The notes under the pieces: model-generated
What the model was told of the DNA's origin: nothing
Seen by the model: only the letters and a program-made list of their open reading frames with translations
Database searches by the model: none
Assembly (NCBI GenBank): GCA_028533045.1
Contig: JAQQAP010000045.1
Location: 1-64,000, forward strand
Length of the DNA: 64,000 nt
From: Spirochaetales bacterium
GTDB taxonomy: Bacteria > Spirochaetota > Spirochaetia > DSM-2461
Direction: 5' to 3'
In this document: piece by piece, positions 18,471 to 46,333 of the stretch
How positions within the stretch are numbered: the stretch's first letter is position 1
Layout: the number at the start of each line of letters is the position of its first letter
Made by a program: the position numbers and the translations under genes

Positions 18471-18543
<73 letters not shown>

Positions 18544-18561
18544 CTAGTTTAAGTTTTGAAG

Positions 18562-18588
18562 GGCAAGGATTTATTCCTTGCCTTTTTT
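18562..18588 (+). terminator. Rho-independent terminator after the first tRNA-Asn
   Basis: GGCAAGGA and TTCCTTGCC form a strong stem with a short loop, followed by TTTTTT. Confidence 0.85.
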
Positions 18589-18646
18589 ATTTATAAGCCT
18601 TTGTCCGAAGTGTCATACAAGAAAGTTCAACTTTAACCACCGGGAG

Positions 18647-18675
18647 TTGACTCTTTTTCCATTTTCTTTTATATT
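18647..18675 (+). promoter_or_regulatory. Promoter of the second tRNA-Asn gene
   Basis: TTGACT (18647-18652) and TATATT (18670-18675) are 17 bases apart, the same architecture as the first copy but with different flanking sequence. Confidence 0.75.
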
Positions 18676-18690
18676 ATTTTCCGCAATTGA

Positions 18691-18763
<73 letters not shown>

Positions 18764-44512: not shown

Positions 44513-44547
44513 TTGCCATCTGCCGCCAATCCTTATATTATGACCCC
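44513..44547 (+). promoter_or_regulatory. Leaderless promoter of dapB
   Basis: TTGCCA (44513-44518) and TATTAT (44536-44541) are 17 bases apart. ATG 44548 follows after six bases and no ribosome site is present. A small GGGGA/TCCCC hairpin with seven T lies just upstream at 44480-44500. Confidence 0.6.
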
Positions 44548-45294
44548 ATGAATCTAGTCATTACCGGATACGGCCGAATGGGCCGTCTAGTGGAAAAAAT
44601 CAGCCTTGAGAGAGGTCATAACATTATTGCCCGTGTGGATAAGGGCGGCTACGGGGATATCTCCGAATTGACTCCTGAAGTCCTGGAAAAGGCGGACGGC
44701 GTTGTGGAATTCGCCCTGTCCAAAGGTTTCGAAGAGAACTGTCGTCTCTATGCCGAATCGGGAGTTCCCGCCGTAGTGGGAACAACGGGCTGGTACGATA
44801 AGAAGGACGAAATAGAGGCCCTCTTTAAGGAAAAAAACGGCTCCTTCCTTTACGGATCGAACTTCTCCATTGGAGCCCACATATTCTTTACCCTAACAGA
44901 ACGGGCCGCCGAGCTTATCGCCGACATCCCCGACTACGATATCATGGTTACCGAATACCACCACAAAATGAAGCAGGATTCCCCCTCGGGAACGGCTATT
45001 ACCACGGGGGAACGCATTCTTAAAGGCTGTCCCCGCAAGACCAAAATGCAGTTCGAAAAACTGGACCGCAGAATCGAAGACGAAGAACTTCATATCGCCT
45101 CCGTAAGGGGGGGCCACATTCCCGGTATCCACCGTGTCTACATGGATTCCCCTGCGGACACCATCGAAGTCTCCCACTCCGCCCGCAGCCGGGACGGATT
45201 TGCCCTGGGAGCGGTTATGGCCGTAGAGTGGCTCCACGGAAAGAAAGGCTTTTTCACCGTAGACGATTTCATTAAAGACTTTTTTAAACTATAA
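44548..45294 (+). CDS. dapB: 4-hydroxy-tetrahydrodipicolinate reductase
   Basis: DapB catalyses the second step of the diaminopimelate/lysine pathway. The 248-residue enzyme has the NAD(P) loop ITGYGRMGRLV (residues 4-14), VGTTGWYD, and the catalytic EYHHKMKQDSPSGTA. It lies 163 bases before dapA, separated by a large inverted repeat rather than a gene. DAP is also needed for the cross-linked peptidoglycan of many Gram-negative cells. Confidence 0.94.
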   Translation: MNLVITGYGRMGRLVEKISLERGHNIIARVDKGGYGDISELTPEVLEKADGVVEFALSKGFEENCRLYAESGVPAVVGTTGWYDKKDEIEALFKEKNGSFLYGSNFSIGAHIFFTLTERAAELIADIPDYDIMVTEYHHKMKQDSPSGTAITTGERILKGCPRKTKMQFEKLDRRIEDEELHIASVRGGHIPGIHRVYMDSPADTIEVSHSARSRDGFALGAVMAVEWLHGKKGFFTVDDFIKDFFKL

Positions 45295-45349
45295 TAAATT
45301 AAAACCGGGCAGAATATAGAAAACGAACAGATTGTTCCATAGGCTAGGC

Positions 45350-45410
45350 GGCAGCGGGATTTAAAACCGCAGTGTACAAAAAGTACATGAGGATTTTAAA
45401 TCCCGCTGCC
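45350..45410. repeat. Large inverted repeat between dapB and dapA
   Basis: GGCAGCGGGATTTAAAA (45350-45366) and its exact complement (45394-45410) are 17-base arms around 27 bases. The centre contains a second dyad, TGTAC-AAAAA-GTACA. An outer pairing GTTCCATA / TATGGGAC lies further out. No T run follows, so it is not a simple terminator. It could be a cis-acting RNA, a protein-binding palindrome or a short mobile remnant. Confidence 0.75.
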
Positions 45411-45457
45411 AACGACGTATATGGGACTAGATGTCGTTTGCCCAAAGGAGACATGCC

Positions 45458-46333
45458 ATGCTGGAAGGAGTATTCACAGCCCTCGTAACCCCCTTCGACA
45501 AGAACCTCAAAATCGACAGGGAATCGCTTAAAAAGATAGTGGACTTTCAGATTAAAGAAGGTATTTCCGGCCTGGTACCCATGGGAACCACCGGGGAAAG
45601 CCCCACCGTATCTATCGAAGAAAATATGGACGTGGTGGAAATGGTGGTTAAAATGGCCGACGGCAAGGTGCCCGTTATTGCCGGAACCGGTTCGAACTGC
45701 ACCGGGGAAGCCATCAAAATGACAAAAATGGCCAAGAATATGGGGGCCGACTACTCCCTACTGGTCAATCCTTATTATAATAAACCGACACAGGAAGGCC
45801 TCTACCGTCACTTTATGGCCGTGGCCGATGCGGTGGATCTTCCCATTGTCCTTTACAACATCATGGGCCGGACCGGTGTTAACCTGGAAACCCCTACCCT
45901 CCTAAAATTGGCCAAGCACGAGAATATCGTGGCCGTCAAGGAAGCCAGCGGGGATCTCTCCCAGATGATGGACGTGATTAATCAGAAACCCAAGGACTTT
46001 GCCGTTCTCTCCGGAGACGACAACCTGGCCCTGCCCCTTACTCTGATGGGAGGTAACGGAGTTATTTCCGTGGCCAGTAACATTGTCCCCCGCTGGATGG
46101 AAGAGATGGTCGGCGCCGCCCGTAAGGGAAATCTGACCAAAGCGAAAACTATTCACTACGAACTGCTGCCCCTTTTCAAGGGCATGTTCCTGGAAACCAA
46201 CCCGATTCCTGTAAAATCGTGCATGTCCCTCATGGGCCTTTTGGAAGAGGAGTACCGCCTTCCTCTCTGCCCTCCCTCCGACGAGAACCGGGAAATCCTG
46301 AGAGAGATGCTCCGGGGACAGGGTCTTATTTAG
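45458..46333 (+). CDS. dapA: 4-hydroxy-tetrahydrodipicolinate synthase
   Basis: DapA condenses pyruvate and aspartate semialdehyde. The 291-residue enzyme has GTTGES (43-48), tyrosine Y133 in LYNIMGRTG and the Schiff-base lysine K161 in VAVKEASGDL. The usual YNVPGRT is YNIMGRT. ATG 45458 was chosen because AAAGGAG lies seven bases upstream. The gene is followed ten bases later by prmC. Confidence 0.95.
   Translation: MLEGVFTALVTPFDKNLKIDRESLKKIVDFQIKEGISGLVPMGTTGESPTVSIEENMDVVEMVVKMADGKVPVIAGTGSNCTGEAIKMTKMAKNMGADYSLLVNPYYNKPTQEGLYRHFMAVADAVDLPIVLYNIMGRTGVNLETPTLLKLAKHENIVAVKEASGDLSQMMDVINQKPKDFAVLSGDDNLALPLTLMGGNGVISVASNIVPRWMEEMVGAARKGNLTKAKTIHYELLPLFKGMFLETNPIPVKSCMSLMGLLEEEYRLPLCPPSDENREILREMLRGQGLI

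Follow-up and report, generated by a model that had tools for sequence, protein, structure and literature searches.

In a Spirochaetales stretch of 64,000 nucleotides (GCA_028533045.1, contig JAQQAP010000045.1, positions 1–64,000; hereafter the window), the palindromic feature between dapB and dapA is probably one copy of a non-autonomous, MITE-like mobile repeat of about 121 nt, which folds into one long hairpin whose internal loops contain conserved blocks. The superfamily to which it would belong is patchily distributed over several bacterial phyla, very probably takes in both the enterobacterial ERIC and the repeat found in the Escherichia coli pyrH-frr gap, and has Xanthomonas members whose opposite strand overlaps the sRNA family sX9. 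The parts of the element and its neighbors are as follows (R1 is the covariance model described below).

44548–45294, plus strand: dapB, dihydrodipicolinate reductase, the upstream gene (open reading frame; Pfam DapB_N/DapB_C).
45320–45440, plus strand: repeat element, R1 positions 1–121 (131.5 bits, E 7.5e-39, with R1 built partly from this very copy).
45320–45329, plus strand: 5' arm of the outer stem P1, partner about 45432–45439 (predicted fold; own-copy pair analysis).
45334–45341, plus strand: 5' arm of P2, GTTCCATA, partner TATGGGAC at 45420–45427 (direct reading; fold; own-copy pair analysis).
45341–45349, plus strand: conserved junction AGGCTAGGC, family form GGCNAGGC (own-copy alignment A2).
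45350–45366, plus strand: 17-base 5' arm of P3, GGCAGCGGGATTTAAAA, partner TTTTAAATCCCGCTGCC at 45394–45410 (fold; strongest both-side changes in the own-copy and cross-phylum alignments).
45367–45392, plus strand: conserved apical core CCGCAGTGTAC-AAAAA-GTACATGAGG, containing an asymmetric internal loop, GCA/GA (invariant or near-invariant alignment columns; source of the search pattern).
45411–45417, plus strand: conserved junction AACGACG (own-copy alignment).
45427–45433, plus strand: conserved CTAGATG near the 3' end of the element (own-copy alignment).
45444–45450, plus strand: dapA Shine-Dalgarno AAAGGAG, adjacent to the element but not part of it, and left unpaired by the predicted fold (direct reading; fold).
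45458–46333, plus strand: dapA, dihydrodipicolinate synthase, the downstream gene (Pfam DHDPS).

The interval 45295–45457 is the entire dapB-dapA intergenic gap, within which the structured element itself spans about 45320–45440, and Pfam supports the identities of both genes. An earlier sequence-only reading had described a nested inverted repeat here, and direct reading verifies each of its three components: the 17-base arms are perfect complements, the inner TGTAC/GTACA dyad lies at 45373–45387 with an inner stem GTGTAC/GTACAT, and the outer pair of P2 arms contains one G-U. An inverted-repeat search of the gap returned 28-nt arms that are 82% complementary, and its minimum free energy of -64.7 kcal/mol compares with -32.9 +/- 3.9 for shuffled sequences (z -8.2), none of the 200 shuffles being as good. 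Ahead of dapB itself there is a promoter-like site, TTGCCA-17-TATTAT (44513–44548), ending 6 nt upstream of the ATG, with which dapB would be nearly leaderless.

The same reading had held that the feature is not a lysine riboswitch, and this is borne out by an Rfam search of the whole window, which returned only tRNAs at the gathering score; lysine riboswitches and other Rfam families can be rejected for the element on this ground. At loose thresholds, the only matches at the element were chance-like short miRNA or sRNA hairpins, and sX9 scored 17.8 bits on the window copy against a gathering score of 44. Inside the element, no intrinsic terminator, i.e., a GC stem followed by a T run, was called. 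An integron attC site appears unlikely, the copies being dispersed. Elsewhere in the window, two tRNA genes with identical scores lie 220 bases apart (18471–18763).

When the gap is used as a blastn query, further copies turn up on numerous contigs of this 4.2-Mb genome. R1, built from 12 own-genome copies (14 were written out, and two dropped before alignment), returns 30 rows at E<=1 from this genome, 21 of them at E<1e-10 and five of the 30 being opposite-strand echoes of other rows; in all, about 21 dispersed copies of the roughly 121-nt repeat can be counted. The sequence-only reading had offered two options, control of dapA or a small mobile remnant, and had named a genome-wide search as one way to check them: the many unlinked copies found are as for a mobile element, and with most of them at non-orthologous positions in same-genus relatives the remnant emerges as the better option. 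The copies are short, numerous, dispersed and without an ORF, and they bear terminal inverted repeats, which take the form of the outer stem in the own genome (partly degraded in the window copy) and of host-specific outer arms elsewhere. Half-element matches, which would be a sign of an autonomous partner with the same ends, were sought in the own genome, and none was significant; no transposase or autonomous partner emerged from this search.

In the alignment of own-genome copies, the letters of the internal loops are conserved (CAGAT, GGCTAGGC, CCGCAGTG/CATGAGGA, AACGACG and CTAGATG), and the stems vary freely yet remain complementary. Across a structure of 36 pairs, 97.0% of the cells pair, as against 84.6% in shuffled alignments and 32–48% in slid versions, and both sides have changed in 19 of the 36 pairs (10.2 when shuffled). 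One own copy (C20) is only 71 nt long and is without the apical part. Another (L036, 1501–1663) carries beside its apical stem an insertion of about 40 nt with a small hairpin of its own.

Among 41 genomes, namely the own and 40 relatives, 14 have R1 matches at E<=0.01, with at least 20 rows in two and none in 27, and a cross-phylum model, R2, finds the element in five of 120 genomes drawn from the phylum, the own genome included. The length is nearly fixed across relatives at about 119–121 nt, and tandem copies occur in the own genome (C5) and in the relative G007 (C419 and C117). When the flanks of 26 relative loci were compared with those of 23 own loci, similarity appeared only where a second, unmasked element lies, indicating that most copies are not at shared sites. 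An exception is the orthologous dapB-dapA gap, where one same-genus genome (G002) has the element at the same site and another (G001) is without it; between the window and G002 copies, nine of the 36 pairs have changed on both sides, three on one side, 19 are identical and five are non-standard in G002. The assembly also contains a second dapBA pair (L231, G000:C5:146260–146446), possibly from contamination (given as 7%), whose DapA is 88% identical and whose gap is without this element; the hairpin it does contain is a different one, present as a single copy in the genome, and was rejected as a family member.

These observations bear on whether the element is instead a dedicated cis-regulator of dapA, be it a leader, an attenuator or an unknown riboswitch. 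It occupies the gap in sense orientation, with its end 3 nt short of the dapA Shine-Dalgarno, G002 carries a copy at the same place with both sides changed in nine pairs, and the 5' UTR of an ilvC-like gene harbors a further own copy. However, around 20 other copies lie beside unrelated genes, mostly antisense at their 3' ends, G001 and the second dapBA pair lack the element, and neither an Rfam riboswitch match nor a terminator-like site is seen in it, such that dedicated regulation appears quite improbable. With the feature taken as a copy of a mobile repeat, a local effect at dapB-dapA is still possible, given its presumed presence in a transcript and its retention in one of two same-genus relatives. 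The window element would be cotranscribed with dapB and dapA, since no promoter-like site was called within the gap, and the hairpin between them could then set the relative stability or balance of the two messages. For ERIC, PMC2229807, citing De Gregorio 2005, reports cotranscription in Yersinia and an orientation-dependent destabilization of upstream messages via an RNase E site.

The spread of the family goes well beyond spirochaetes. In genome_contigs, at least 118 stretches match the core pattern CGCAGTGTACN{2,8}GTACATGAGSAT exactly, against 0.4 expected with uniform bases, and the titles among the matches listed include Pseudomonas, Xanthomonas, Legionella, Rickettsiales, Holosporales, Bacteroidales, Balneolales, Acidobacteria, Thermodesulfatator, Deferribacteraceae, Melainabacteria, Oligoflexales, Lysinibacillus and Ureibacillus. 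R1 matches 76 of 80 fetched core-pattern loci at E<=0.01, the four misses including both Bacilli loci; R1 also gives 24–38 bits to the opposite strand of good hairpins, so that a hairpin alone earns a score with it. The outer arms vary by host and are largely complementary within any one copy. In a cross-phylum alignment of 77 rows (A4), 88.5% of the cells pair (58.6% when shuffled), and both sides have changed in 33 of the 36 pairs, amounting to 793 cells as against 266 in shuffled and 133–217 in slid versions; A4 was fitted to the R1 structure, which favors that structure, and of its rows one is from the opposite strand and two are short fragments from E. coli. The location is mainly chromosomal: plasmid copies are few (2 and 10 plasmid records in two queries), one viral contig has the element, and one query of phages gave no match, all of which speaks against a phage or plasmid origin. 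In one alphaproteobacterial genome (L113, L144, L145), a short palindrome, approximately GACACTTGTGTC, has been inserted at differing points of differing copies, a repeat within a repeat. In Bacteroidales copies (such as L116, L119, L126, L143, L151, L157), the outer arms differ from copy to copy and are still largely complementary, as though every copy had rebuilt its outer stem or acquired it from the target.

The structure is also strand-specific. Outside the apical stem, 74 rows of A4 (three of the 77 having been dropped) contain 134 G-U and 40 A-C oppositions, with 52 sequences having more G-U and eight more A-C. Independently of any alignment, folding is more stable on the plus strand in 103 of the 112 copies and less stable there in eight; the set, drawn from 21 own loci, 26 relative loci and 85 wide matches, comprises 19 own copies, 20 from relatives and 73 wide matches, and here, as in the gene-context counts below, the copies are mutually related and the tests ignore kinship. 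Together, the G-U excess and the energy asymmetry imply that the strand carrying CGCAGTG..CATGAG is the one that folds, either as RNA or as single-stranded DNA; for the window copy, it coincides with the dapA-sense strand. Palindromes are prone to hairpin-templated correction and gene conversion. Accordingly, one might regard the copies as selfish or inert double-stranded palindromes devoid of strand-specific function, with stems kept complementary by templated mutation or conversion, and the very fast, complementary change of P3 and the tandem copies would fit this. That account is nonetheless unlikely in the face of the strong one-strand excess of G-U over A-C, the energy asymmetry and the conservation across phyla of asymmetric internal-loop letters.

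The element also has a preference for gene 3' ends, with its own 3' end toward the stop codon. The gene on its 3' side faces it with the stop codon in 55 cases and with the start in 19, and the gene on its 5' side with the stop in 34 and the start in 47, as judged with a crude ORF caller and with copies placed inside an ORF omitted. The stop is found within 5 nt of the model 3' end in 23 of the 55 cases on the 3' side; the corresponding figures are none of 34 for the 5' side and 346 of 2020 for random placements. Part of the difference between the sides is a boundary effect, since many copies appear to extend 15–25 nt beyond the model on the left. Several of the abutting genes (an AICARFT, FtsA and a laccase domain) are full-length by Pfam, and their stops are therefore probably natural. 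Two different AICARFT genes of the assembly (L036 and L038) each end at the 3' end of an element. The window copy has the rarer, sense orientation, most other copies being antisense at gene 3' ends; a second own sense copy is in the 5' UTR of the ilvC-like gene, which, from its first residues, we take to be ilvC.

As for movement, the family may be mobilized by a transposase supplied in trans, using targets of the TA type, as ERIC is described to do. Other E. coli strains lack the ERIC copy that precedes btsT, and the gap of about 123 nt fits a TA target. In the own genome, the only occupied and empty pair that aligned, upstream of the ilvC-like gene (L026), is not clean and faces unrelated sequence in the genus; the own copy L025 has no orthologous site in the genus, and two plasmid loci had no second record for an empty-site comparison.

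The link to named repeats comes from several directions. A Yersinia plasmid copy in xylA-xylB has matches in 5375 of 5426 E. coli genomes, at a median of five places, which fall 23348 times on chromosomes and 10 times on plasmids, the best copy lying in pyrH-frr. This E. coli repeat may be the one called "RSA." With the default filters, R2 gave two matches at E<=5 in 147 kb of E. coli: the pyrH-frr copy, whose score is not independent as two 34-nt fragments of that repeat are in the R2 training set, and one ERIC copy, which lies between hsdM and hsdR (33.2 bits, E 2.6e-6). Three of the four ERIC copies in these 147 kb were missed at this setting, suggesting that ERIC is a distant member. With the filters off, R2, which was trained without ERIC, recovers three of three E. 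coli ERIC loci (24.5, 23.7 and 21.1 bits; E 8e-5 to 9e-4) at the right place and on the right strand, the ERIC sequence having been taken from PMC2759123 and then located in E. coli; the opposite strand was not listed at E<=10, which argues against the score coming from the hairpin alone. Thus, the same fold and core blocks are found on the same strand as ERIC, and the superfamily appears to include the E. coli ERIC. The modest scores of 21–33 bits and the loss of most ERIC copies to the default filters would also suit a real cross-phylum family to which ERIC is an unrelated look-alike. This is rather unlikely, although less so than the other alternatives, as R2 finds all three loci correctly, GGAGCGTAC..GTACGTGA of the pyrH-frr copy recurs in one ERIC copy, and ERIC and the family share the CAAGGCG and CAACGCAG blocks.

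The sX9 family (RF02228) scores above gathering on six of 18 loci scanned, by title four Xanthomonas, one Pseudomonas and one Lysobacterales MAG, and always on the strand opposite to the element; on these matches, the Xanthomonas sRNA family sX9 is antisense to part of an element. More broadly, ERIC, the repeat of pyrH-frr, the sX9 locus of Xanthomonas and many repeats without a name in various bacterial phyla may all go back to a single family of structured repeats, either ancient or repeatedly transferred. The strand that folds would be held by a widely conserved host factor or by the mobilizing enzyme, with the result that a conserved core of RNA (or single-stranded DNA), and not the ends, would be the constant part; this is put forward tentatively, as a serious possibility. 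So far, ERIC has been seen as a repeat of enterobacteria and as a target for fingerprinting. Should its core be common to several phyla under a strand-specific structural constraint, the upkeep and movement of such repeats would become testable by comparison, an Rfam sRNA family would be an antisense slice of a repeat, and many gene 3' ends would carry the same folded module.

MITE-like palindromic repeats as such are already well known: PMC2267715 lists 92 stem-loop families by species, PMC3110155 describes BRE and PMC10969869 reviews MITEs. In this literature, mainly open-access, no paper was found to join ERIC, sX9 and the repeats of other phyla, and the ERIC superfamily as one family is most likely undescribed there. 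YPAL/RU-2, RU-3, RUP, BOX, NEMIS, RPE and BRE resemble the element in size, intergenic location, hairpin and sometimes tandem arrangement (BRE; PMC3110155), whereas YPAL and RU-3, judged by eye from the sequences given in PMC2759123, have no such core. The sX9 sRNA corresponds to only a part (76 nt) of the element on the opposite strand, and the consulted portion of its Rfam entry does not call it a repeat. The pyrH-frr repeat has the same apical core and different terminal repeats. The window element, with the ends AAAACGA..TCGTTT in place of the terminal TATACCC..GGGTATA, is not ERIC proper. ERIC, also known as IRU or RU-1, is described for gammaproteobacteria only (enterobacteria and Vibrio) in the literature consulted; it differs in its terminal sequences and middle stems and reaches only 21–33 bits with R2. 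Nevertheless, it is likewise a chromosomal, intergenic palindrome (of about 127 bp) with an RNA-like hairpin and presence or absence between strains, and it shares with the element the inner blocks CAAGGCG / CAACGCAG and the asymmetric apical GGAG/UGA loop.
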